Assembly (NCBI RefSeq): GCF_016862895.1
Contig: NZ_BONV01000002.1
Coordinates: forward strand, 248,001 to 312,000
Length of the DNA: 64,000 nt
Direction: 5' to 3'
Source: Planotetraspora kaengkrachanensis
GTDB lineage: Bacteria; Actinomycetota; Actinomycetes; Streptosporangiales; Streptosporangiaceae
In this document: positions 50,706-62,808 of the stretch, one piece after another
Layout: each line of letters starts with the position of its first letter
How positions within the stretch are numbered: position 1 is the stretch's first letter
The notes under the pieces: generated by a model
The model's database searches: none
The model's input: only the letters and a program-made list of their open reading frames with translations
What the model was told of the DNA's origin: nothing
Translations under genes and position numbers: made by a program

Positions 50706-52361
50706 TCAGCCGACTCCCAGGGGCGTGGCCGGCGGTGCCACCTGGGGCGTCAGGCGTGGGATCGCGGCGAGCAGTTCGCGGGTGTAGTCGTGCTGGGGAT
50801 CGGTGAACACGGTGCGCACGTCGCCTGACTCCAGCACCCGCCCGTCCCGCATGACCAGCACCCGGTCGCTCGCGTGGTAGACGACGCCGAGGTCGTGCGA
50901 GATGAACAGGTACGCCACGCCCAGCCGGGCCTGCAGGTCGGCGAGCAGGTCGAGGATCTGCGCCTGCACAGAGACGTCCAGCGCGGACACCGGCTCGTCG
51001 CAGACGATGACCTCCGGTTCGGCGGCCAGCGCACGGGCGACGGCCACCCGCTGCCTCTGCCCGCCGGACAGTTCCAGCGGCCTCCGCCGAAGATGCCCGG
51101 CGTCGAGCGCGACCATCTCGAGCAACTCGACCGTGCGCTCCCGGCGGGCGCCGCGTGGGTGACCGGCGGCGCCGAGCGCCTCACCGATGACTCTTTCGAC
51201 GGTGAATCGCGGGTCGAAGGAACCGAGTGGATCCTGGTACACGATCTGCAGCCGACGCCGATGGGCGCGCCGCTGCTCAGGGGTGAGCGCGGGCCACGGG
51301 GTCCCGTCGACGTGGACTTCGCCGGCGTCCGGCGTCTCCAGGCCCAGCAGGAGCCGGGCGGTGGTGCTCTTGCCGGAGCCCGACTCCCCCACGATGCCCA
51401 GCGTCTCGCCGGCCCGCAGAGTCAGCGAGACATCCTCGACCGCGACCCGCGCGACGCCGTCCGGTCCCGGGAACGACTTGCGCAGCCCGACGGCGGCCAG
51501 AACGGGTCTGCCAGGCTGCGCCGCAGCGGGAGGTGAGACCGGCGCGGCGGCCGCAGGCCGTTCCACCGTCGAGAGCCACGTGCCCTTCGCGTGCGCGGAC
51601 GGCACCGCGGCCAGCAGCGCCTTCGTGTACGGGTGCTGGGGATCCCGCAACACCGCATCGGTCGCCCCGAGCTCGACGATGCGGCCGGCCTTCATGACCG
51701 CGACCCGGTCGGCCAGCCGGGCGACCACCGCCAGGTCGTGGCTGACGATCAGCAGTCCGCTGCGGTTGCCCTTGAGCGAGCCGAGCAGATCGAGCACCTG
51801 CAGGGCCACGGTCGCGTCGAGCGCGGTGGTCGGCTCGTCCGCGAGCAGCAGCTCCGGTTCGCACGCGATCGCGGAGGCGATGAGCGCCCGCTGGCGGAGG
51901 CCGCCGGACAGTTGGTGCGGATACTGGGCGGCCCGCACCTCTGGCTCCGGCACCCCGACGGACTCCAGTAGTTCGTGTACCCGCGCGGCCCGCGCGGCCC
52001 GGTTCAATGTGGTGTGCAGGGCCAGCGGCTCGGCGATCTCCCGGCCCACCGGCCGCAGCGGGTCGAGCGAGGCCATCGCGTCCTGGAGCACGAACCCGAT
52101 CCGCGCCCCGCGCACCCGACGCCATGTCCGGTCGGTGAAACCGGTGACGTCGGTGCCGTCGAAGCGCAACCGGTCGGTGTGCACGCGGGCGCCGTACCCG
52201 GGGAGGCCGACGAGCGTACGGGTCGTCACGCTCTTGCCCGAGCCCGACTCCCCCACCAGCGCGAGGCACTCGCCGCGCTCCAGCGTGAAGGAGACTCCGT
52301 CGACGACCGTGGTGCCGTTGAACGCGACCTTCAGCCCAGCGACCTCGAGCAGGCTGGTCAT
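50706..52361 (-). CDS. Fused dipeptide-type ABC transporter ATPase (DppD-DppF)
   Basis: A 551-aa protein with two complete ATPase domains. First (1-260): Walker A GESGSGKSV, signature LSGGLRQRALIA, Walker B LLLADEPTTALD. Second (275-551): GESGSGKST, LSGGQRQRVAVA, VIVCDEPVSALD. This fusion is common in actinobacterial peptide/nickel-type importers. The ATG overlaps the stop of the permease gene (ATGA). It powers the importer whose operon starts with the flavin reductase. Confidence 0.95.
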   Translation of the reverse strand: MTSLLEVAGLKVAFNGTTVVDGVSFTLERGECLALVGESGSGKSVTTRTLVGLPGYGARVHTDRLRFDGTDVTGFTDRTWRRVRGARIGFVLQDAMASLDPLRPVGREIAEPLALHTTLNRAARAARVHELLESVGVPEPEVRAAQYPHQLSGGLRQRALIASAIACEPELLLADEPTTALDATVALQVLDLLGSLKGNRSGLLIVSHDLAVVARLADRVAVMKAGRIVELGATDAVLRDPQHPYTKALLAAVPSAHAKGTWLSTVERPAAAAPVSPPAAAQPGRPVLAAVGLRKSFPGPDGVARVAVEDVSLTLRAGETLGIVGESGSGKSTTARLLLGLETPDAGEVHVDGTPWPALTPEQRRAHRRRLQIVYQDPLGSFDPRFTVERVIGEALGAAGHPRGARRERTVELLEMVALDAGHLRRRPLELSGGQRQRVAVARALAAEPEVIVCDEPVSALDVSVQAQILDLLADLQARLGVAYLFISHDLGVVYHASDRVLVMRDGRVLESGDVRTVFTDPQHDYTRELLAAIPRLTPQVAPPATPLGVG

Positions 52362-53212
52362 GTGGTTCTCCCTTCGGAGCGGCGGCGCACTTCGCGGCCG
52401 AGCACGGTGATGGCCAGCACGGTCAGCGTGATCGCCACACTCGGCACGGCCACCAGGAACCAGTCGTTGGAGATGTACTGCAGGCCGTTGGAGAGCATGT
52501 CGCCCCACTCGGCGGCCGGCGGCTCGGCGCCCAACCCCAGGAAGCTCAGTGCGGCGCCGGCACTGATCGCGGTGCCGATCCCGATGGTGGACAACACCAG
52601 CACCGGCCGGATCGCGTTGGGCAGCACGTGCCGCCAGATCACCGTGAAGCGTTTCATGCCGAGCCCTGTGGCCGCCTCGACGAAGATGGAGCGGCGCACG
52701 ATGTGCGTCTGCGCCCGCACGATCCTCGCGTACGACGGGATGCTGGCGAACGCGACGGCGAACATCGCATTGGTGCTGCCGGCGCCCGCCAGGGTGATGA
52801 CCACCAGCGCCAGCAGCAGCTCCGGTATGGACAGCACCACGTCGATCAGCCGCATGACGACGCTCTCGGTCAACCGGCTGCCCAGCCCTGCGATCAGACC
52901 CAGCAGGGTGCCGCCGGTGACCGCGATCGCCGTCGCGCCCAGCCCCATCACCAGCGAGGGCCGGGCCCCGTAGACCATGCGGCTGAGCACGTCGCGGCCG
53001 GACTCGTCGGTTCCGAGCGGGTGAGTGCCGCCGGGCGCCAGGAAGGCCCCGTCGGCGCCGATCTCCAGGGGGTCGTGCGGTGCCAGCAGTTGCGGCACGA
53101 GGGCCGCGACCACGACGGCCGCCACGAACAGCCCCGCCAGGATCAGCCCGGGGCGCAGCCGGACGCGGCCTGCCCGCGGCAGCGCCGCATCCGTCGCGGT
53201 CAACGCGCTCAT
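52358..53212 (-). CDS. Peptide-type ABC transporter permease (DppC)
   Basis: A 284-aa inner-membrane protein with six helices, the N-terminal HPLGTDESGRDVLSRMVYGAR motif of DppC proteins and the EAA-like loop EAATGLGMKRFTVIWRHVLPN. ATG 53212 overlaps the DppB stop (ATGA); the longer open frame upstream lies within dppB and is ignored. Pairs with DppB to form the channel. Confidence 0.94.
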   Translation of the reverse strand: MSALTATDAALPRAGRVRLRPGLILAGLFVAAVVVAALVPQLLAPHDPLEIGADGAFLAPGGTHPLGTDESGRDVLSRMVYGARPSLVMGLGATAIAVTGGTLLGLIAGLGSRLTESVVMRLIDVVLSIPELLLALVVITLAGAGSTNAMFAVAFASIPSYARIVRAQTHIVRRSIFVEAATGLGMKRFTVIWRHVLPNAIRPVLVLSTIGIGTAISAGAALSFLGLGAEPPAAEWGDMLSNGLQYISNDWFLVAVPSVAITLTVLAITVLGREVRRRSEGRTT

Positions 53213-54189
53213 CGAGTCACCAGCCTCGGGTCGATGAGCGTGTACGCGATGTCCACCAGCAGGTTCACCAAGACGTAGACGAAGGCGGCGAAGACCACCA
53301 GCCCCAACACCATCGGGATGTCCTTGGTCGTCACCGCGGAGAGCATCAGCTGTCCCACCCCTTGGCGTACGAACAGCGTCTCGGTGATGACCGCGCCGCC
53401 CAGCAGTCCGCCGACCACGAAACCGGACATCGTGACGATCTGTACCAGTGCGTGGCGCAGGGCGTGCCGCACCCGGACGACGGTGTCCCGCATGCCGCGG
53501 GTGCGGGCGGTGAGGATGAAGGGCTGCTCCAGTACCTCCTCCAGTTCGCTTCGCAGGACCTGGGCGAGCACCGCGCCGATCGGCAACGCCAGAGTGAGCG
53601 TCGGCAGGATCAGCGCGCGCGGCCCGTCGTTCCCGGAGACGGGCAGGACCTTGAGGGTGAAGGAGAAGACGATGAGGAGCACGATGCCGATCACGAACGT
53701 CGGCGTCGCGGACAGCGTCAACTCCACTCCGGAGGCGATCGACCGCCACGGCCGCCTCCGCGCGGTCAGCACCGCGGCCGCGATCGCCAGCAGCACGGCC
53801 ACAACGGCCGCCGCCACCGCGAGCTGAACGGTCTGGCCGAGTTGCTCGCCGATCGCCTGGCTCACCGAGATCCGCTGCTGGTAGGACCGGCCCAGGTCGC
53901 CGTGGAGCAGGCGACCCAGGTAGTCCAGGTACTGGTGGTAGAGGGGCTGGTCCAGGCCGAGGTCACGGCGGACCTGGTCCAGCACCTCCTTGGTCGGGTT
54001 GGCCCCCTGGCCGGCCACGGTGGACAGGGCGGCGTCCCCCGCGGTGACGTGCAGCGCGATGAAGCTGAGCGTGGCCGCGCCCCACAGGACCCCCACCCCG
54101 GCGATCAGGCGTACCCCGATCCGCTTGGCGATGGCGACCGCCGTGGGGCGCACGGCGAGCCGGGTCCCCGTCGTGCCGAGGGCTGTCAT
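53209..54189 (-). CDS. Peptide-type ABC transporter permease (DppB)
   Basis: A 326-aa permease: first helix RLIAGVGVLWGAATLSFIAL, the DppB signature DQVRRDLGLDQPLYHQYLDYLGRLL and the EAA-like loop TARTRGMRDTVVRVRHALRHA. ATG 54189 overlaps the stop of the binding-protein gene. Part of the coupled importer genes. Confidence 0.94.
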   Translation of the reverse strand: MTALGTTGTRLAVRPTAVAIAKRIGVRLIAGVGVLWGAATLSFIALHVTAGDAALSTVAGQGANPTKEVLDQVRRDLGLDQPLYHQYLDYLGRLLHGDLGRSYQQRISVSQAIGEQLGQTVQLAVAAAVVAVLLAIAAAVLTARRRPWRSIASGVELTLSATPTFVIGIVLLIVFSFTLKVLPVSGNDGPRALILPTLTLALPIGAVLAQVLRSELEEVLEQPFILTARTRGMRDTVVRVRHALRHALVQIVTMSGFVVGGLLGGAVITETLFVRQGVGQLMLSAVTTKDIPMVLGLVVFAAFVYVLVNLLVDIAYTLIDPRLVTR

Positions 54190-55823
54190 TTCGTGAGCCA
54201 CGCGTAGGTGAACACGGGCGTGGCGTGCGACGTGTCGGTGATGACGCCCTGCAGCTTCCTGCTGGTCGCCCACAACACCGAGTTGTCGTAGATGGGCACG
54301 CCGGGCACCAGGTCGACCAGCCGCTGCTGGACCTTGCCGTAGAGGTCCCTGAGTTTCGCGGCGTCGGTGGTCTGGCGGGCCTGCTCCAACCAGGTGTCGA
54401 TCTGCTGGTCGGACAGATGGGACAGGTTCTGCCCCAGGCGCTTGTCGTTCGGGATGCTCTCCGTCGCGTACTTGATGTAGAGCACGTCCGGCGTGTTGGT
54501 GTGCCAGACGCCCGACAGGAGGTCGTAGTCCCCGGCGTACCGCAGCGTGGTGACCTGGGTGAGGGGCAGGAGGTTCACGTTCACCTTGAAGCCGACCGCC
54601 TTGGCCTGTGCCTGGATCAGGTTGTAGACCGGGCTGACCGTGGCGGTCTGCGTGACCGGCGACTGCGCCTCGAGGACCTTGCCGTCCTTGGTGCGGTAAC
54701 CGTCGGCGTCGCGTCCCGTCCAGCCGGCCTGGTCGAGGAGTTGGTTGGCCTTCGCCGGGTCGTACCCCGGGAACTTCACGTTCGGGTCGTAATACTGGGT
54801 GACCCGGTCGAGGAACCCGGTCGCGGGTTGCCGCTGCCCGAACCCGATCGTCTGGATGATCGCCGGCACGTTGACGGACGCGGCGAAGGCCCGGCGGACG
54901 TCGATGTCGTCGAACGGCGCACGGGAGACGTTGAAGTCAAGCGTGAACGGCCAGCCGATCCGGTTGTTGTTGTGGTATTCGAGGGCGGGGTTGGACTTCA
55001 CGGCCTGCGCGTTCTGCGCCGGCAGGTAGCCGGTGGCCTGGTACTGGCCGCTGACCAGCGAGTTGAAGCGCACCGCGTCCTGGCCCACCCAGTCGACCTT
55101 GATGCCGTCGAGGTAGGCCGGACCGCCGCGCTTGTACAGGTCGGGCGGCCAGTTGTAGTCGGCCCTGCGGGCGAAGGTGACGCTCTGGTTCTTGGTGTAT
55201 CCGGTCAGCACGAACGGCCCGGAGCCCACCGGGTGCTCGCACAGCTGGGCCGGAGTGGACTCCTTGATCGCCTTGGGTGACTCCATCCCGAGCCAGCCCT
55301 GGGCCAGCACGGTCAGGAACGGGACGTACGGCCGGGACAGGTGCACCTCGAGCGTGTAATCGTCGATGATCTTGCTGTCCTCGTACGGCGCGATGTACGG
55401 GCCGGCCAGCGGTGATCGGGTCGCCGGGTCGAGCATGTGCTCGAAGTTGGTGACGACCGCCTGGGCGTCGAACACGGCGCCGTCGCTGAAGGTCACACCC
55501 TCGCGCAGGTGGAAGGTGTAGGTCTTGGCATCGGGCGAGATCTCCCATGAGGTGGCCAGCCACGGCGACGGGTCGCCCTTGTCGTCCAGGTAGACCAGGT
55601 TGTCCGTGAGGATGTGCCCGAAGATCTGCTCGACGTCTGAGGAGATCGCGTGCGGGTCGAGGCACAGCGGGTCGAGCGACATGGACAGGTTCAGGGTGCC
55701 ACCGCGCGCCGGTTCGGCGGAGACGCCGTCGGCGGTGCCCGCCCTAGCGCCGCCGCACGCGGTCAGCAGCGACAGGCCGGCCAGCGTGGCGACGAGACTC
55801 CGGAGGGTTCTTGAGGGGGACAA
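54186..55823 (-). CDS. Peptide-type ABC transporter substrate-binding lipoprotein
   Basis: A 545-aa family 5 solute-binding protein. TTG start with GAGGAG upstream. Lipobox LLTACGG (Cys near residue 22) anchors it outside the membrane. The signature LVYLDDKGDPSPWLATSWEIS and WQ-type pocket residues show the DppA/OppA fold. Since it lies behind a flavin reductase and a sulfur-type leader peptide, its ligand may be a sulfur-containing peptide or organosulfur compound (inference). Confidence 0.92.
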   Translation of the reverse strand: MSPSRTLRSLVATLAGLSLLTACGGARAGTADGVSAEPARGGTLNLSMSLDPLCLDPHAISSDVEQIFGHILTDNLVYLDDKGDPSPWLATSWEISPDAKTYTFHLREGVTFSDGAVFDAQAVVTNFEHMLDPATRSPLAGPYIAPYEDSKIIDDYTLEVHLSRPYVPFLTVLAQGWLGMESPKAIKESTPAQLCEHPVGSGPFVLTGYTKNQSVTFARRADYNWPPDLYKRGGPAYLDGIKVDWVGQDAVRFNSLVSGQYQATGYLPAQNAQAVKSNPALEYHNNNRIGWPFTLDFNVSRAPFDDIDVRRAFAASVNVPAIIQTIGFGQRQPATGFLDRVTQYYDPNVKFPGYDPAKANQLLDQAGWTGRDADGYRTKDGKVLEAQSPVTQTATVSPVYNLIQAQAKAVGFKVNVNLLPLTQVTTLRYAGDYDLLSGVWHTNTPDVLYIKYATESIPNDKRLGQNLSHLSDQQIDTWLEQARQTTDAAKLRDLYGKVQQRLVDLVPGVPIYDNSVLWATSRKLQGVITDTSHATPVFTYAWLTK

Positions 55824-55911
55824 CTGACGCTCCTCGTGGGGGATGCGGGTACGCGGAAGTCACACCGGCCGCGCCGTCTGGGCAGCCGCCGGCGGAAAAA
55901 TGAATCGACGA

Positions 55912-56418
55912 TCAGGAATGCGGGATGAATCGGCCGAATCGGCCCTGGTGGTACAGCAGTGGCCGGTCGGCGCCGTGCACCGTCGCCTCGGAGACGAGGC
56001 CCACGACGAGCACGTGGTCGCCCACGTCCACCGTCGCGTACGGCAGGCAGACCAGGTGCACCGACACGTCGCTCAGCAGCGGCGTGGCGTGCGGACCGGG
56101 GCGCCAGCGTGTGGGCTCGGCGAACCGGTCGATGCCCTTGCGGGCGAACCTGGCGGCCAGCTCGCCCTGGTCGCTGGTGAGCACGTTGACGGCGAAGTGG
56201 TCGGCCGAACGCAGCCGGGGCCAGGTGGTCGAGGCCTGGTCCACGTAGAAGGAGACCAGCGGGGGCTCGAGGCTCACGGAGGAGAACGACGTGGCGGTCA
56301 GCCCGACGGGGATCCCCTCGTCCTGGGCCGTGATCACCACGACTCCCGCGGCGTGCGCCGCGAGCGCCCTTCTGAACTGCTCGCCGTCCACGGCCCGCCC
56401 GGGGAGGGTCTCGGTCAC
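55912..56418 (-). CDS. NAD(P)H:flavin reductase of DszD/NtaB type
   Basis: A 168-aa FMN reductase. Motifs GLTATSFSSVSLEPPLVSFYV and HFAVNVL, and the late DHVLVVGLV, mark the flavin-reductase-like split barrel that feeds reduced FMN to two-component monooxygenases (DszD, NtaB, HpaC). GTG 56418 is preferred; the stop of a 16-codon ORF overlaps it as GTGA, suggesting coupling. ATG 56487 is an alternative. It should supply FMNH2 to the LLM and DszC-like oxygenases encoded nearby. Confidence 0.9.
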   Translation of the reverse strand: MTETLPGRAVDGEQFRRALAAHAAGVVVITAQDEGIPVGLTATSFSSVSLEPPLVSFYVDQASTTWPRLRSADHFAVNVLTSDQGELAARFARKGIDRFAEPTRWRPGPHATPLLSDVSVHLVCLPYATVDVGDHVLVVGLVSEATVHGADRPLLYHQGRFGRFIPHS

Positions 56419-56465
56419 CTTCCCGCACCTTTCCCGGGAATCGGAACCACCTGAGGGGTGCTCAT
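56415..56465 (-). CDS. Possible 16-codon ORF coupled to flavin reductase
   Basis: ATG 56465 has a strong ribosome-binding site (GAAGGAG, 8 bases upstream), unlike the flavin reductase itself. The predicted peptide starts MSTPQVVPIPGK and ends GAGR; its TGA overlaps the reductase GTG. Either it is a short coupling peptide that carries ribosomes to the reductase start, or chance. Codons give no verdict. Confidence 0.4.
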   Translation of the reverse strand: MSTPQVVPIPGKGAGR

Positions 56466-56655
56466 CTGATCTCTCCTTCGCGTCCATGCCACGGTCGCCC
56501 GCTTCTGCTGCTGGGGTTTCCTGCGGGAGCCGTCGGCGGCGGCGCATGGGTGGTCACAAGGCGACCGCGGCCTCGGGCCTGTCCCCCGACGGCGTCGGCG
56601 GGGCTCGGTAAGCCGGCGGCGATGCCACCGGATCAGAAAGAGTGATGGTCAGTGA
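56466..56655 (-). promoter_or_regulatory. 5' leader between leader peptide and flavin reductase, with hairpins
   Basis: Two GC-rich hairpins follow the leader peptide in the message: CCGGCGGC/GCCACCGG (56613-56631) and CCCCCGAC/GTCGGCGGGG (56583-56603). They are candidates for an attenuator that depends on ribosome position. No U-rich tail is seen, so control may act on translation or through Rho. Confidence 0.45.
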
Positions 56656-56730
56656 TCAGCGACATTGCGCACTGGCGACGTGGCAGAGGTCCACGTGCTG
56701 GCGCCGAATCAGTCGGACATCCTGCCTCAT
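56656..56730 (-). CDS. Sulfur-operon leader peptide (24 aa), cysteine-responsive attenuation type
   Basis: This ORF is too short for gene finders. ATG 56730 to TGA 56656 encodes a peptide beginning MRQDVRLIRRQ, with core RQHVDLCHVAS and a second cysteine three codons before the stop (ending AQCR). The RQHVDL core is the known signature of actinobacterial putative leader peptides ahead of sulfate, sulfonate and cysteine genes, studied in mycobacteria as cysteine attenuators. The -10 box ends 8 bases before the ATG, so the message should be leaderless. Low Cys-tRNA would stall ribosomes at the Cys codons and raise expression downstream (inference by analogy). Confidence 0.85.
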   Translation of the reverse strand: MRQDVRLIRRQHVDLCHVASAQCR

Positions 56731-56737
56731 GCCACTC

Positions 56738-56766
56738 AATCTACGACCTCCAGGACATAAAGTCAA
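56738..56766 (-). promoter_or_regulatory. Promoter of flavin reductase-importer operon
   Basis: On the minus strand TTGACT (56766-56761) and TAGATT (56743-56738) are 17 bases apart. Transcription would begin at about 56731-56730, at the ATG of the leader peptide. Confidence 0.8.
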
Positions 56767-56790
56767 TATTTCCTACTGGTTATACATAGA
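56767..56790. promoter_or_regulatory. Shared 24-bp sulfur-locus motif, copy 1
   Basis: TATTTCCTAC followed by TGGTTATACATAGA directly abuts the -35 box of the leader-peptide promoter. It matches the segment at 58413-58436 at 19 of 24 positions. The place just upstream of -35 suits an activator. Confidence 0.65.
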
Positions 56791-56828
56791 ACTTGCCTGA
56801 TCTGGCCTCCCGCAGCGGAACCACGCGG

Positions 56829-58226
56829 TCAGTCGGACTCGTGAGCCTTGGGGCCCCGGCGGAACGCCGCACCCGGGTGGGTGTCCGGCAGCCGGTGGAC
56901 TCCGCGGCCCAGCAGGCGCTCGCGCAACGTGCTGTCGTCGTACGACGTGCGATAACGCCCGCGCCGCTGCAGTTCGGGAACGACGAGTTCGATGAAGTCC
57001 TCGGCCGTGCCAGGAGAGAGGTACTGCATGAGGTTGAAGCCCGCGGCGCCGGTCTCGTCCGCCCAGCGCTCGATCTCGTCCGCCACTCGCTCCGGCGTGC
57101 CGGCCACGAACAACGGCCCGCCCTGTCCGACACGGCCGACGGATGCCAGCACGTCCCGGACCGTGAGCCCTCTGCCCACCAGGGGGCGGATCGCGCGCTC
57201 GGTGAAGTCCCCTCCCCTCGCGACGATGTCGTCGATCGCCTCGTCGGGGTCGTAGGCCGCGAGATCGATGCCGCTGCCGCGCTGTGCCAGGAAACCTTCC
57301 GGACTGATGTGGCGTTGCAGGTCCGCCACCTTGGCGTCGGCCTCCGCCTGGGTGGGCGCGACGATCACGGAGGCGCCGGGGAAGACCTTGACGTGGTCGG
57401 GGTCGCGGCCGAAGGCGGCGGCGCGCCGCTTGAGATCGGCGATCTCCTCGCGTAGCGCTTCCAGTGACGGGGCGCCGGTGAAGACGGCCTCCGCGTGCCT
57501 GGCCGCGAAATCCCTGCCGCGTTCGGAGTTGCCGGCCTGGTAGAGCACGGGGGTGCGCTGTGGCGACGGTTCCGACAGGTGCGGCCCGGCGACACGGAAG
57601 TGCTTGCCGACGTGGTCGATCGCGTGGACCTTCGCCGGGTCGGCGTAGACCCGCGCCTCCACGTCCCTGATGACGGCGCCGTCCTCCCAGCTGCCCTCCC
57701 ACAGCTTGTAGAGGACCTCCAGGTACTCTTCCGCGATCTCGTAGCGCAGGTCGTGCTCGATCTCGTCGTCGAGCCCGAAGTTCCTGGCCGCGCTGCGCAG
57801 ATAGGAGGTGACGACGTTCCACGCCACCCGCCCCTTGGTGAGGTGGTCCAGGGTGGACATCCGGCGCGCGTGCGCGAACGGCGGCTCATAGGTGGTGGAG
57901 AACGTCACGGCGAACCCGAGATGCCTGGTCACCGCGGCCATCGCGGGCACCACGAGCAGCGGGTCGTTGGCCGGCACCTGCACGGCCTCACGAACGGCGG
58001 TCTCCGGCCCGCCTCGGTAGCGGTCGTAGAGCCCCACCACGTCGGCGAGGAAGACCGCGTCGAACAGCCCCCGCTCGAGCAGCGTGGCCAGGTCGGTCCA
58101 GTAGTCGATGTCGGTGTACCGGTGTCTGTTGTTCTCCGGATGCGTCCACAGCCCGTGCTGGATGTGGCCGACGCAGTTCATCTCGAAGAGGTTGAAGTGG
58201 ATGATCCGGCGTTCGAGGTCAGTCAC
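56829..58226 (-). CDS. FMNH2-dependent monooxygenase of NtaA/SnaA/DszA/DmoA family
   Basis: A 465-aa luciferase-like monooxygenase, GTG start. Near the N-terminus FNLFEMNCVGHIQHGLW-type sequence and FDAVFLADVVGLYDRY, then RRMSTLDHLTKGRVAWNVVT and SYLRSAARNFG, closely match DszA/DmoA, which cleave C-S bonds of sulfones or dimethyl sulfide using FMNH2. Length is normal for the family. It is divergent from the SfnB-like gene and shares the 24-bp promoter motif. Organosulfur desulfurisation is inferred from family and context. Confidence 0.9.
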   Translation of the reverse strand: MTDLERRIIHFNLFEMNCVGHIQHGLWTHPENNRHRYTDIDYWTDLATLLERGLFDAVFLADVVGLYDRYRGGPETAVREAVQVPANDPLLVVPAMAAVTRHLGFAVTFSTTYEPPFAHARRMSTLDHLTKGRVAWNVVTSYLRSAARNFGLDDEIEHDLRYEIAEEYLEVLYKLWEGSWEDGAVIRDVEARVYADPAKVHAIDHVGKHFRVAGPHLSEPSPQRTPVLYQAGNSERGRDFAARHAEAVFTGAPSLEALREEIADLKRRAAAFGRDPDHVKVFPGASVIVAPTQAEADAKVADLQRHISPEGFLAQRGSGIDLAAYDPDEAIDDIVARGGDFTERAIRPLVGRGLTVRDVLASVGRVGQGGPLFVAGTPERVADEIERWADETGAAGFNLMQYLSPGTAEDFIELVVPELQRRGRYRTSYDDSTLRERLLGRGVHRLPDTHPGAAFRRGPKAHESD

Positions 58227-58412: not shown

Positions 58413-58436
58413 TATTACCTACCTGTTTTACATGGA
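58413..58436. promoter_or_regulatory. Shared 24-bp sulfur-locus motif, copy 2, in divergent promoter
   Basis: TATTACCTAC followed by CTGTTTTACATGGA lies between the divergent DszA-like and SfnB-like genes. On the minus strand a TTGTTT-N17-TATGGT promoter begins two bases beyond it (58410-58382). The AT content stands out from its surroundings. Confidence 0.6.
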
Positions 58437-58475
58437 TTAGCCTTCCCACGTGAACACGCACGAACGGACGGCACC

Positions 58476-59696
58476 ATGAGCATCGACAGCCCACCATCGC
58501 GAGCCCCCGGCACCTCGACCGCGCATGTGATCGCGGACGACGCGGAGGCGCTGGCCGTGGCGGAGGAGCTCGCCGGCGAATTCGCGGCGGAAGCGGCGGA
58601 GCGGGACGCCCGGCGGCGACTGCCCCGGCAGGAACTGGACCGGTTGTCGGCAAGCGGACTGCTCGGGATCACCGTTCCGCGTGAACACGGCGGCGCGGAC
58701 GTGCGCGCGCGGACCGTCGCCGAAGTGTTCCGGCTCCTGGCCGCCGCCGACCCGAACATCGCCCAGATCCCGCAGAGCCACATCGTCTACGTCAACGTGC
58801 TGCGTCAGCAGGGCGACCCCGCGCAGCAGGAGTTCTTCTTCGGCGAGGTGCTGGCCGGCAGGCGCTTCGGCAACGCCCAGTCTGAGGCGGGGACGAAGCA
58901 CGTGCAGGACTGTCGGACGCGGCTCGTCCGCGCGGGTGACCACTTCGTGCTGCGCGGCGTCAAGCAGTACAGCACGGGCGCGCTGTTCGCCGACTGGATC
59001 CCGGTCCTGGCCCGTCACGAAGACGAGACACTGCACGTCGCGTACGTGCCCGGGGACGCCCCCGGGCTGACCGTGGTGGACGACTGGGCCGGGATGGGGC
59101 AGCGGACCACCGCCAGCGGCACGGTACGGCTCGAGGACGTCGCCGTGCCGCCGGAGCATGTGGTGCCCCACCACCTGACGTTCACCGGGCCGCAGTTGCA
59201 CGGCGCGCTGGCGCAACTGCTGCACACGGCCATCGACGTGGGAATCGCGGGCGGTGCGCTGACCGAGGCGGTGAAGTTCGTGCGGACCAAGGCCCGCCCC
59301 TGGTTCGAGAGCGGCCAGGAGACCGCCGCGGAGGACCCGCTGGTCATCCAGCGGGTCGGTGAACTCTCCATCAAGGTCCGCTCGGCCGAGGCGTTGCTGG
59401 TCGCGGCCGGGGAGGCGGTCGACGCGGCGCGAGCCGACCTGACCGCGGAGTCGGCCGGAGCGGCCTCGATCGCCGTGGCGACCGCGAAGGCCTACGCGGA
59501 CCCGGTCGCGGTCGAACTCGGCAGCGCCGTCTTCGAACTGGGCGGCACCAGGTCCAGCCTGGAGGGGCTCAACCTGAACCGGCACTGGCGCAACGCCCGC
59601 ACCCACACCTTGCACGACCCGGCGCGCTGGAAGGTCCAGCACATCGGCCGGTACGTACTCAACGGACAGCTTCCGCCCCGCCACGGCCTGCTCTAG
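58476..59696 (+). CDS. SfnB-like sulfur-acquisition oxidoreductase (acyl-CoA dehydrogenase fold)
   Basis: A 406-aa flavoprotein. The acyl-CoA-dehydrogenase core is visible in GLLGITVPREHGGADV, AAADPNIAQIPQSHIVYVN, FGNAQSEAG and GVKQYSTGALFADWIPV. It is close to SfnB and DszC, which oxidise sulfones or thioethers rather than acyl-CoA. The ATG overlaps the TGA of a 9-codon GTG ORF from 58450 (ATGA). First of three genes followed by an SsuD-like enzyme 8 bases on. Probably uses FMNH2 from the reductase at 55912. Confidence 0.9.
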   Translation: MSIDSPPSRAPGTSTAHVIADDAEALAVAEELAGEFAAEAAERDARRRLPRQELDRLSASGLLGITVPREHGGADVRARTVAEVFRLLAAADPNIAQIPQSHIVYVNVLRQQGDPAQQEFFFGEVLAGRRFGNAQSEAGTKHVQDCRTRLVRAGDHFVLRGVKQYSTGALFADWIPVLARHEDETLHVAYVPGDAPGLTVVDDWAGMGQRTTASGTVRLEDVAVPPEHVVPHHLTFTGPQLHGALAQLLHTAIDVGIAGGALTEAVKFVRTKARPWFESGQETAAEDPLVIQRVGELSIKVRSAEALLVAAGEAVDAARADLTAESAGAASIAVATAKAYADPVAVELGSAVFELGGTRSSLEGLNLNRHWRNARTHTLHDPARWKVQHIGRYVLNGQLPPRHGLL

Positions 59697-59704
59697 GAAC
59701 AACC

Positions 59705-60862
59705 ATGACTTTGACCTTTCACTGGTTCCTGCCCACGTACGGCGACAGCCGCGACATCGTCGGCGGCGGTCACGGACTGCCCGCGGGATCGGCCGGCGGC
59801 GCCCGGCCCGCCACCTTGGCCTACCTGCGGCAGATCGTGGACGCGGCCGAGCAGCTCGGCTTCGTCGGCGCCCTGACGCCGACCGGCGCCTGGTGCGAGG
59901 ACGCCTGGCTGACCACGGCCATGCTCGTCGAGACGACGGAACGGCTCAAGTTCCTGGTCGCGTTCCGGCCGGGCTTCATCACCCCGACGCTGGCCGCCCA
60001 GATGGCCGCCACGTTCCAGCGCCACTCGGGCGGCCGGCTGCTGCTCAACGTGGTCACCGGCGGGGAGAGCCACGAGCAGCGCGCGTACGGCGACTTCCTC
60101 GGCAAGGACGCCCGATACGCGCGGGCGGACGAGTTCCTGCACATCGTGCGGGCCCTGTGGCGCGGAGAGGTCGTCGACTTCGCGGGCGACCATCTGAGAG
60201 TCGAGGGCGCGCGACTCGACCGGCTGCCCGACCCGGTGCCGGACGTCTATTTCGGCGGCTCGTCCGCCGCGGCGGGCCCGGTCGCGGCCCGGCACGTCGA
60301 CGCGTACCTCACGTGGGGAGAGCCCCCTGCGGCCGTGGCCGAGAAGATCGCCTGGGTGTCCGGACTCGCGGCGGCCGAGGGCCGCACCCTCCGCCAGGGC
60401 ATCAGGCTCCATGTGATCAGCCGGGACACCAGCGAGCAGGCGTGGGCGCAGGCCCGGCGGCTGCTCGACGGCATCGACCCGGCCACCGTCGAGAAGGTCC
60501 AGGCAGGCCTCGCCCGCAGCGAGTCAGAAGGGCAGAAGCGGATGCTCGGCCTGCACGGCGGCAGCCGCGACGGCCTGGAGATCTATCCGAACCTGTGGGC
60601 GGGGGTGGGCCTGGTCCGCGGCGGAGCCGGCACCGCTCTGGTCGGCAGCCACACCGAGGTCGCCGACCGGATCGAGGAGTACCACCGCCTCGGCATCACC
60701 GAGTTCGTCCTCTCCGGCCATCCCCACATCGAGGAGGCGTACTGGTTCGGCGAGGGCGTGCTGCCCATCCTGCGCAGCCGCGGGCTCTGGGAGCACCCGC
60801 AGGCCCCGCAGGGCGCGGACCGGTCGGCCGCCATCCCCTTCGCCCCCGCATCCTCGAGCTGA
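59705..60862 (+). CDS. SsuD-like alkanesulfonate monooxygenase
   Basis: A 385-aa luciferase-like FMNH2 monooxygenase. FHWFLPTYGDSRDIVGG near the start, RPGFITPTLAAQMAATFQRH, and LLLNVVTGGESHEQRAYGDF strongly match SsuD, which releases sulfite from alkanesulfonates. The C-terminal EFVLSGHPHIEEAYWFGEGV is also typical. No ssuABC importer is present here, but a peptide-type ABC importer is encoded across the divergent promoter. Second gene of the oxygenase operon. Confidence 0.93.
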   Translation: MTLTFHWFLPTYGDSRDIVGGGHGLPAGSAGGARPATLAYLRQIVDAAEQLGFVGALTPTGAWCEDAWLTTAMLVETTERLKFLVAFRPGFITPTLAAQMAATFQRHSGGRLLLNVVTGGESHEQRAYGDFLGKDARYARADEFLHIVRALWRGEVVDFAGDHLRVEGARLDRLPDPVPDVYFGGSSAAAGPVAARHVDAYLTWGEPPAAVAEKIAWVSGLAAAEGRTLRQGIRLHVISRDTSEQAWAQARRLLDGIDPATVEKVQAGLARSESEGQKRMLGLHGGSRDGLEIYPNLWAGVGLVRGGAGTALVGSHTEVADRIEEYHRLGITEFVLSGHPHIEEAYWFGEGVLPILRSRGLWEHPQAPQGADRSAAIPFAPASSS

Positions 60863-60876
60863 CCCGGCGGGACGTC

Positions 60877-62058
60877 ATGACTACTCAGAACCTCCCCGCG
60901 GCCGGAGTGACGGAACTGCGGGAGCGTGCGGCGCTGATCCTGCCTGAGCTGGCAGAAGGCGCCGCCGAGCGGGAGCGCGTACGGGAACTGCCGCACGCCC
61001 AGATCCGCCGGGTCGCCCAGGCGGGGCTGTTCACCTTCCGGATCCCGGTCGAGTACGGCGGCGCGGGCTCGTCGGTCCAGGACGTGTTCCGCTTCGTGAT
61101 CGATCTCGCCGCGGCGGACTCGAACATCGCCCAGGCGGTGCGCCCGGACTTCGGCCGGGTCGAAGCGCTGCTGGCGGGACCGGAAGCCGAACGCCGCAAA
61201 TGGTTTCCCCGCTTCCTCGCCGGCGACGTCTTCGGCAACGCGGGCTGGGAGACCGGCGGCCCCAACGGGACGATCCAGTCCCGGATCACCCGGCACGGTG
61301 ATCATTTCAAGGTCAACGGCACCAAGTTCTACAGCACGGGGGCGCTGTACGCCGACTGGATCGGCACGGCGGCTCTGGACGACGACGGAGAGAAGGTGTT
61401 CTTCACGCTGCCTCGCGATCGGGAGGGGCTGCACCTCGTCGACGACTACGACGGCATCGGCCAGCGCCTCACCGCCAGCGGGACCACCAGACTCGACGAC
61501 GTCGTCGTTCATCCCGACGAGATCAGCACCCGCGACGGCGGTGAACGGCGCTCCCCCGTCACCGCCTTCCTGCAGCTCTACCTGGCCGCGGTCGAGGCCG
61601 GCATCGCACGGAACGCGCTCACGGACGCGGTGGCCTTCGTGCGCGAACTGGCCCGGCCGATCGCGCACAGCAGCGCCGCGCGCTCGGTCGACGACCCGTA
61701 CGTCCAGCACGCGGTGGGGGACATCTCCGCCCGGGCCTACGCAGCCGAGGCCGCCGTCCTGCGGGCGGCCGCCGCCATCGATCGAGCGTGGCACGAAGAT
61801 CTGCGGCCCGAGTCGCTGACCGCCGCGTCCGTCGAGGTCGCGCAGGCACAGTTCTTCGCGGTCGAAGCGGCGCTCAAGTCGGCCGAGTCGCTGTTCGACG
61901 TCGCCGGCGGCTCGGCGACCGGGCGTGCCCACAACCTGGACAGGCACTGGCGGAACGCCCGGACCGTGGCCAACCACAACCCCCGGTACTGGAAGGCGGC
62001 CGTCGTCGGCGCCTTCAGGCTCAACGGGACCGAACCCCCCACCAACGGTCTGTTCTGA
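60877..62058 (+). CDS. DszC/SfnB-like flavin monooxygenase (acyl-CoA dehydrogenase fold)
   Basis: A 393-aa paralogue of the gene at 58476, starting at ATG 60877, 14 bases after the SsuD-like gene. Core motifs: GLFTFRIPVEYGGAGS, AAADSNIAQAV, GNAGWETGG, NGTKFYSTGALYADWIG and DNLDRHWRNAR-like C-terminus. Both C-terminal halves end in LNGxxPPxxGL. DszC-type enzymes hydroxylate sulfur compounds with FMNH2 and O2. Two such paralogues suggest different substrates or successive steps. Confidence 0.9.
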   Translation: MTTQNLPAAGVTELRERAALILPELAEGAAERERVRELPHAQIRRVAQAGLFTFRIPVEYGGAGSSVQDVFRFVIDLAAADSNIAQAVRPDFGRVEALLAGPEAERRKWFPRFLAGDVFGNAGWETGGPNGTIQSRITRHGDHFKVNGTKFYSTGALYADWIGTAALDDDGEKVFFTLPRDREGLHLVDDYDGIGQRLTASGTTRLDDVVVHPDEISTRDGGERRSPVTAFLQLYLAAVEAGIARNALTDAVAFVRELARPIAHSSAARSVDDPYVQHAVGDISARAYAAEAAVLRAAAAIDRAWHEDLRPESLTAASVEVAQAQFFAVEAALKSAESLFDVAGGSATGRAHNLDRHWRNARTVANHNPRYWKAAVVGAFRLNGTEPPTNGLF

Positions 62059-62274: not shown

Positions 62275-62808
62275 TCAACGGGTGCGCGACGCCGTGATCG
62301 GTTCGAGAAGTCGTCGTGGCGTGTTGATCGCGTCGGACACGGGATCGTGACCGGGGTCCGTCGAATCGAATCCGGGTCCTGGTTCGATCCGGATCTCCGG
62401 GACCGGGATGACCAGACCGCAATCTCCGCAGCGCCCCTCGTGGTCGAGAAGACCTCCGTCCTGATCGTGGCGGGCGGCGCGCTTGACTCCGGACGGAGAG
62501 TAGAACGTGTCCCCCCAGTGCATCAGAGCACGCACGACCGGCCACAGTCCTTCGCCCTTGGCGGTCAGCCGGTACTCGACACCTCCGGTCGCGCCGTCGT
62601 CACGGACGAGCACGCCCTCCTGCACGAGGGACTTAAGCCGGCTGGTCAAGACGGCGCGGGGGATCTTCAGCTGAGTGACGAAGTCTCCGAACCGGCGGAC
62701 CCCGAAGAACGCGTCGCGGACGATGAGGAGCGTCCACCGCTCCCCGACGATCTCCAGCGATCGCGCCAGCGAGCAGTTGCGGTCGGCATAGGTGCTCGGA
62801 AGCGTCAT
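62275..62808 (-). CDS. HxlR-family transcriptional regulator
   Basis: A 177-aa regulator. NCSLARSLEIVGERWTLLIV (with the conserved Cys) opens the winged helix, followed by RRFGDFVTQLKIPRAVLTSR and the wing RDDGATGGVEYRLT. A C-terminal extension with CGDCG may bind metal or sense redox. Divergent from the monooxygenase at 62920; the gap contains two palindromic operators. HxlR-type regulators often sense electrophiles or quinones. Confidence 0.92.
   Translation of the reverse strand: MTLPSTYADRNCSLARSLEIVGERWTLLIVRDAFFGVRRFGDFVTQLKIPRAVLTSRLKSLVQEGVLVRDDGATGGVEYRLTAKGEGLWPVVRALMHWGDTFYSPSGVKRAARHDQDGGLLDHEGRCGDCGLVIPVPEIRIEPGPGFDSTDPGHDPVSDAINTPRRLLEPITASRTR

Follow-up and report, generated by a model that had tools for sequence, protein, structure and literature searches.

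A leaderless leader peptide with an invariant UGU codon, and a conserved operator beside its promoter, head a flavin reductase-importer operon in Planotetraspora kaengkrachanensis, within the 64,000-nt stretch of contig NZ_BONV01000002.1 analyzed here (the window). Taken together, our data lead us to read this locus, with moderate confidence, as a two-layer sulfur-starvation switch that would control an organosulfur uptake and desulfurization cluster. We infer the cysteine control of the operon from sequence comparison. For experiments, the invariant UGU and the regulon-defining operator offer the better lead, rather than the HVDLC core of the peptide.

A sequence-only reading of this DNA had proposed a leader peptide ORF on the minus strand, a leaderless TTGACT-N17-TAGATT promoter, and membership in the actinobacterial family of leaders that precede sulfur genes. 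Translation of 56730-56656 gave MRQDVRLIRRQHVDLCHVASAQCR followed by a stop, as proposed, and the promoter layout was exactly so: TTGACT, 17 nt, TAGATT, 7 nt, and the ATG at 56730 on the minus strand. The family assignment held as well, given RRxHVD-type relatives and a full-length alignment to NCBIfam NF042934 (positions 1-19 of 19, E 4.7e-5) whose 22.9 bits fall short of the curated cut-off of 27 bits. This score under the cut-off would account for the absence of the ORF from the annotation. Seven other Streptosporangiaceae leaders behaved similarly against NF042934, with four at 15.3-23.2 bits and three without a match. Of the proposed RQHVDL core, the leader type was right, but the family motif proved to be RRxHVD[LF]...V.SAQC. 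An Rfam scan of 55800-57000 returned three chance-level matches, none close to the gathering score. Coordinates are collected in Table 1.

Table 1. Features of the leader locus and the adjoining organosulfur cluster, in window coordinates
Feature	Position	Strand	Basis or remark
Leader peptide ORF, MRQDVRLIRRQHVDLCHVASAQCR then stop	56656..56730	-	Translation; sister species; NF042934 alignment; 92 related leaders
-35 hexamer TTGACT	56761..56766	-	Read directly; fixed part of operator element
-10 hexamer TAGATT	56738..56743	-	7 nt before leader ATG (leaderless start, predicted)
Cys23 codon TGT	56662..56664	-	D+9 relative to the HVD Asp; invariant; proposed sensor codon
Cys16 codon TGC	56683..56685	-	Within HVDLC; varies among relatives
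Conserved operator, consensus wwTTTCATGTAWAAC..GTAGGRAAT	56768..56794	-	Imperfect dyad TTTCAT-N11-AGGAAA; PWM 45.7
Second operator copy	58414..58439	-	Before monooxygenase, in divergent gap with sfnB; PWM 45.0
ORF2, MSTPQVVPIPGKGAGR then stop	56415..56465	-	Probable in-frame relic of MsuE/SsuE-like FMN reductase; relic homology by eye
Flavin reductase (PF01613), 168 aa from GTG 56418	55912..56418	-	SD-like GGGAAAGG upstream, inside ORF2
SBP_bac_5 substrate-binding protein	54186..55823	-	
Dpp/Nik-type permease B	53209..54189	-	Longest ORF from 54273; ATG 54189 overlaps SBP stop; start inferred
Dpp/Nik-type permease C	52358..53749	-	Domain from about residue 204 of longest ORF
Fused importer ATPase, two ABC domains	50706..52508	-	
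NtaA/DmoA-family FMN monooxygenase	56829..58226	-	TIGR03860, above cut-off
SfnB-family sulfur acquisition oxidoreductase	58476..59696	+	TIGR04022, above cut-off
SsuD-like alkanesulfonate monooxygenase	59705..60862	+	NF001939 465.7 bits, below cut-off 510
Second acyl-CoA-dehydrogenase-fold oxidoreductase, probably SfnB/DszC-like	60883..62058	+	Pfam acyl-CoA dehydrogenase domains

The suggestion to look for the same peptide ahead of orthologous operons proved fruitful. Leader and promoter were present in all three named sister species fetched (L017, L018, L019): the P. phitsanulokensis leader begins with GTG, that of P. thailandica is MSQDVRPTRRHNVHFCHVARGQCR, and that of P. mira is MSQDVPLTRRHHVDFGHVASAQCC, in which the first Cys is replaced by Gly. 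Diverged leaders precede the orthologous importer in Rugosimonospora (MNRSLRLVRRRFVDFLRVCSAGC) and in three Catellatospora loci (MKRSLRLTQRRHVDFQRVCSSGC); here the last Cys is TGT and the other Cys TGC. No leader was recognized by eye in about 500 nt at L024, L025, and L026. Two of these loci, L024 and L026 (Streptomycetaceae), share GATTCCGGGTC(C)ACCGGACAGCTCCAGCC about 300-400 nt before the importer. Judged by this conservation, the leader ORF and its leaderless promoter are genuine.

About 40 bp of promoter DNA were common to the leader locus and a second place in the same genome, and this match gave us the search pattern ATGTANAACNNGTAGGNAATNTTGACT, comprising the operator and the -35 hexamer. 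Allowing at most two mismatches and using the reversed pattern as a control, we found it in 9 of 60 relatives. A search of 341 Streptosporangiaceae genomes placed operator plus TTGACT at 134 sites, spread over 97 of the genomes, and the reversed pattern at none. A weight matrix was built from these sites, and all 134 enter the operator statistics. It located two operators in the window, at 56793 (score 45.7) and 58439 (45.0); the best score among 20 shuffled windows was 14.0. Both also occur in the three sister species, where the second copy scores 38.4, 25.6, and 36.5; the weight-matrix scan found no operator in L020-L042. The 26-bp operator directly adjoins the -35 of the leader promoter, and a TAnnnT -10 box lies 16-18 nt past the -35 at 128 of the 134 sites. 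The operator thus adds a transcriptional layer that the sequence-only reading had overlooked. Its dyad, TTTCAT-N11-AGGAAA, resembles LysR-type sites. A CysR-type site was considered and set aside, as by eye the operator bears no resemblance to the Corynebacterium glutamicum CysR site (PMC2580772), an inverted repeat with a conserved TGAAtnnAAt. Neither this operator nor an invariant UGU is described in the literature searched, as far as listed titles and individual passages show. Among the papers searched for the peptide strings, HVDLC and RQHVDL were not found, and two had VDLCR or RRHVDL in unrelated contexts.

At 92 of the 134 operator sites, a regular expression identified a leaderless peptide of the form LTRRxHVDF[G/C][H/R]VASAQC, mostly ending in SAQC[RHP]. 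The start codon is ATG in 91 of the 92 and lies 30 nt after TTGACT in 73, with 29 or 31 nt in the remainder. Codons for His, Val, Ala, and Arg drift synonymously despite conservation of the peptide. The sequence-only reading had stressed the Cys of HVDLC, at D+2 from the HVD Asp, as the core. This residue is not conserved: P. mira has Gly here, as do 55 of the 92 relatives (36 have Cys and 1 has Ala), and judging by these replacements it is dispensable, whereas the C-terminal Cys is kept. The last Cys is present in all 92 by the search rule, which left its codon free to vary, and that codon is TGT in 92 of 92 Streptosporangiaceae leaders. The stop follows exactly two codons after the UGU in 81. 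The regular expression missed the leaders at L052, L135, and L171, which stand among the 42 sites counted as without one; so do L074 and L101, which hold longer leader-like ORFs. The last Cys listed in these five is TGT, and 37 to 39 of the 134 operator sites have no recognizable leader.

The same codon recurs far beyond this family. Of 148 class genomes, 116 hold NF042934 matches with E no higher than 0.01, and in 96 a match exceeds the cut-off. Our class-wide sample comprised 70 NF042934 matches (30 supplied as loci and 40 chosen from the match list) plus 4 of the same genome, and 67 of these 74 leaders could be parsed by a rule that made no demand for Cys at D+9. All 67 carry Cys at D+9, encoded by TGT in 67 of 67, so that TGT stands at this position in 159 of 159 parsed leaders overall. 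The last Cys is TGT also in four Micromonosporaceae leaders. Seven of the 70 class loci remained unparsed; L196, L202, L205, and L248 show TGT, and L218, L219, and L241 were left out. Other Cys codons follow no such rule: at D+2, TGC outnumbers TGT by 62 to 15 across the 92 plus 67 leaders, and among the 67 class-wide leaders the counts are TGC 24 and TGT 6 at D+7, TGC 4 at D+8, and TGC 19 and TGT 7 after D+9. In flanking predicted genes, TGT makes up 69 of 545 and 24 of 117 Cys codons. A Fisher test of D+9 against the other Cys of the peptides gave 1e-53 for sequences that are related and hence not independent, so the argument rests instead on the spread of UGU at D+9 over about two dozen GTDB families, as tallied by family codes. 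The leader is a member of a large family of likely cysteine sensors, in which sensing seems to take place at the single TGT (UGU) at D+9.

A G-U wobble lets tRNA-Cys(GCA) decode UGU. We tentatively put forward a broader idea, with more doubt than belief, that actinobacteria share a codon-level sensor: one UGU, with UGC never in its place, set at constant spacing after a conserved motif of the nascent chain. While the peptide in the exit tunnel primes the ribosome, wobble decoding by tRNA-Cys would turn it into a graded cysteine meter, which in Streptosporangiaceae would be wired to a hairpin between stop and start codons and to the new sulfur operator.

Evidence for such a hairpin came from the conserved UGAUCACGA after the leader stop. 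In many loci the next ORF has at its start codon UCGUGAUCA, of which UGAUCACGA is the reverse complement. By a strict count (complement of at least 8 nt at an SD-preceded start, flavin reductase-internal sites left out), stop arm and start were complementary in 51 of the 92 leader loci, compared to a mean of 34.8 with arms swapped between loci and 5.0 with shuffled arms. The swapped control is high because the arms themselves are conserved. When flavin reductase-internal sites are admitted, including that of the window, the complement is found in 56 and SD+GTGATC starts in 51 of the 92. SD+GTGATC[AG] starts, again counted strictly, occur in 46 of 92 leader loci versus 4 of 42 others, and three of those four are the missed leaders L052, L135, and L171. 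A stop/start complement in about half of the 92 loci is as expected if translational attenuation operates.

Folding predictions and wider searches gave a mixed picture. Among 30 compact loci, 28 had the start codon paired with the stop arm at a probability of 0.98 or more, but masking the stalled ribosome lowered the mean predicted start pairing in the 30 loci from 0.99 to 0.72, which counts against the hairpin model. The core pairs hardly vary, and covariation support is small, with the best position (+8) showing A-U 21, G-C 16, and G-U 7 of 70. A duplex search over the whole downstream region gave no excess (mean z -0.27 versus -0.11 for control arms), and the signal shows up only when tested at start codons. 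As a class-wide feature the hairpin failed, since the complement in class-wide leaders was no better than with shuffled arms (5.94 versus 5.82, n=67). An intrinsic terminator gained no support, with no excess folding after the leader stop. In the window itself, pairing between the leader stop and the ORF2 start amounts to just 6 bp (CUGAUC:GAUCAG). The probability of pairing between the ORF2 start region and the stop arm was 0.00 in the window, P. mira, and P. thailandica and 0.26 in P. phitsanulokensis, and the folding has this region pair instead with other sequence; the longer, 9-nt complement of the window falls inside the flavin reductase, away from a gene start. For the window, the hairpin model is thus borrowed from relatives and may not apply.

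ORF2 lies between the leader and the flavin reductase, and its stop overlaps the GTG at 56418 by GTGA. It is 16 aa long in the window, whereas the sisters have versions of 63, 54, and 32 aa; in all four species it is in frame and has the GTGA overlap with the flavin reductase start. An intact SsuE/MsuE-like FMN reductase fills this slot in L085 and L158, with a like overlap, and a truncated one does so in L087. Because of its MSIVT starts and a LGAxxPTPG stretch, both noted by eye, we believe that ORF2 is probably the relic of an FMN reductase gene, kept as a translational ramp. SD-like sequence upstream of the flavin reductase GTG in the four species ruled out that this gene has no Shine-Dalgarno site of its own. 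It follows that coupling to ORF2 may not be essential and that the ramp is not proven necessary.

Gene order in the window and in the sister species bears out that the leader heads a flavin reductase-importer operon, as had been claimed. The NtaA/DmoA monooxygenase lies upstream of the leader on the same strand, and the SfnB, SsuD-like, and second acyl-CoA-dehydrogenase-fold enzymes are divergent; the cluster ends, on the far side, with a MarR/HxlR-like regulator (62275-62808, minus strand) that scores below profile cut-offs. The host genome is 8.77 Mb. The binding protein matched its nearest named loci (Planotetraspora) at 93-95%, and an NtaA/DmoA-, SfnB/DszC-, or SsuD-like enzyme occurred near its relatives in 24 of 26 loci, among them Sphingomonas, Pseudomonas, and Xylophilus. 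The two fetched stretches in which no such enzyme occurred were L035, which is cut short, and L042, which is remote. Since the importer relatives keep this company, the importer is most likely an organosulfur importer, and the sulfur ligand foretold for this Dpp-type system is very probably right. Among the 26 loci, a flavin reductase stands beside the importer in no others than the three sister species; L032 has one at another place in its stretch.

The first gene after the 92 leaders, meaning the first one recognized by the queries used, was an SsuA-like binding protein in 56, a flavin reductase in 21, an ABC ATPase in 6, an FMN reductase in 3, a monooxygenase in 2, a Dpp-type binding protein in 1, and an FAD oxidoreductase in 1, with none in 2. 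Organosulfur-type genes follow 90 of the 92 leaders, and the same target set was matched at 31 of the 42 operator sites without a regex leader. The sequence-only reading had taken the target in the window for a departure from the usual sulfur genes, a view that does not survive the finding of an SsuA-like protein or a flavin/FMN reductase first in 80 of 92 loci.

Several further arrangements were seen. After the operator, or between the leader and the flavin/FMN reductase, L073, L095, L115, L120, L167, L190, and L191 encode a small protein whose core is G[DE]x[HY]WYD[LV]PDD[DE]. In L166, L077, L190, and L191, which have no separate leader, leader-like first codons (MSQG, MSxSLTRR) of the first ORF past the operator are fused in frame to a monooxygenase, a flavin reductase, or the WYDLPDD protein, and these fusions look as if they bypass the attenuator. 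A paralogous operator before an SsuE-like FMN reductase in L056-L058 starts a different leaderless ORF, MSQDxFxARPxRGDxGR...RCRSR, with no HVD motif and one TGT codon near its end. An NF042934 leader of the same genome precedes a 2-oxoacid:ferredoxin oxidoreductase alpha-subunit-like ORF (L004; L070, 4792-6636, minus strand; by eye), an unusual target.

We propose the following course for the two-layer switch. A transcription factor, most simply an activator, would bind the operator beside the -35 and switch on both the monooxygenase and the leader operon. The transcript would begin at the leader ATG, and the ribosome reading the leader would report charged tRNA-Cys by its progress through the UGU two codons ahead of the stop. 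With cysteine plentiful, the ribosome would complete the leader and depart, and the freed leader end would keep the next ORF from being initiated. Many relatives show what this blocking structure would be, namely UGAUCACGA of the stop region paired with UCGUGAUCA at a downstream start codon. With cysteine scarce, a ribosome stalled on UGU would cover the stop region, and the next ORF could start. The start under such control in the window would belong to ORF2, which is probably what is left of an FMN reductase gene, still in frame and running into the flavin reductase start.

Other explanations account for parts of these data. Being short and under the family cut-off, the leader might be taken for a chance ORF, a reading with practically no prospect given that three sister species keep it and that leaders of its type, set at a fixed distance from the operator, occur at 92 of the 134 operator sites. 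It is very unlikely that the operator and its factor regulate alone, with the leader as the passive start of a leaderless transcript. The 37 to 39 leaderless-peptide-free sites would suit this arrangement, as would several (L103, L128, L166) at which the gene itself starts at the leaderless ATG, but it would neither conserve a peptide nor force TGT in 92 of 92. Nascent-chain arrest has a somewhat better chance, although we still think it improbable: a TRRxHVDF..V.S tail in the exit tunnel would set the UGU stall beyond tRNA-Cys shortage, possibly sensing free cysteine or another sulfur metabolite. Its appeal lies in some 14 conserved residues at a fixed spacing to the UGU, with codons drifting synonymously, and in the recurrence of UGU at D+9 in about two dozen GTDB families; classical attenuator leaders are not known for such amino acid conservation with fixed spacing. 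Several motif residues, however, are replaced in class-wide variants. Arrest and the two-layer switch can coexist.

Rho-dependent transcription attenuation, in the manner of E. coli tnaC, falls between the last two in our estimate and is a distinctly unlikely rival. Here a finished leader would expose a C-rich, G-poor stretch that the UGU-stalled ribosome hides. Consistent with this, the 0-75 nt after the stop of the 92 leaders have C at 0.39-0.43 and G at 0.22-0.26, compared to 0.35 and 0.37 upstream of the operator, and the first 100 nt show no excess secondary structure (mean z -0.13). However, C-rich spacers may be common in such genomes, and the model leaves the stop-region/start-codon complement in about half of the loci unexplained. 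Since the flavin reductase has its own SD-like sequence, we weighed the two-layer switch lower and the Rho model slightly higher. Rho was suggested for mycobacterial cys leaders in PMC1262725.

If the two-layer switch is correct, a sensing codon can be named for a widespread family whose sole annotation is "putative leader peptide," and exchanging one base synonymously (TGT to TGC) would test it. The operator would define a regulon of organosulfur use in Streptosporangiaceae, a sulfur role would fall to a Dpp-type importer for which profiles suggest peptide or nickel transport, and there would be a rule for finding leaders that score under the current annotation cut-off.

Among known systems, the closest is NF042934 itself (cis_reg_atten, actinobacteria), which shares with the window leader a short ORF before sulfur genes, a (K/R)RxxVDL core, and the Cys at D+9. 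TGT at D+9, common to the window leader and all 67 parsed NF042934 leaders, is not part of the curated definition. Unlike the NF042934 norm, Streptosporangiaceae leaders have Gly at D+2 in 55 of 92 and mostly a SAQC[RHP] C terminus and are linked to a specific operator. With E. coli TnaC and erm-type leaders, what becomes of the next gene depends on a ribosome that halts at the end of the leader. The proposed switch would share this logic, with cysteine shortage as the signal; we know of no sequence relation between those leaders and that of the window. A 2005 study predicted Cys leaders ahead of actinobacterial cys operons (PMC1262725), and mycobacterial ones were found as leaderless uORFs (Shell 2015, PMC4633059). 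According to PMC13236596, which cites Canestrari 2020, cysteine genes of Mycobacterium smegmatis are under translation attenuation. The mycobacterial uORFs Ms5788A and Ms4527A are leaderless, precede sulfur genes, and have Cys near the stop (PMC4633059), and the window peptide matched their profiles weakly, at 16.2 and 12.7 bits (curated 45 bits). In contrast to them, it has no polycysteine tract but two separated Cys, one of them unconserved, and it comes with another operon type and a separate operator. The Rhodobacterales uORFC-8-2 cysS attenuator (PMC8632094) likewise has a leader with Cys codons close to an RNA switch, but with tandem Cys, UGC dominant, and an intrinsic terminator, whereas the leaders studied here have one UGU each, and folding past their stop shows no excess.
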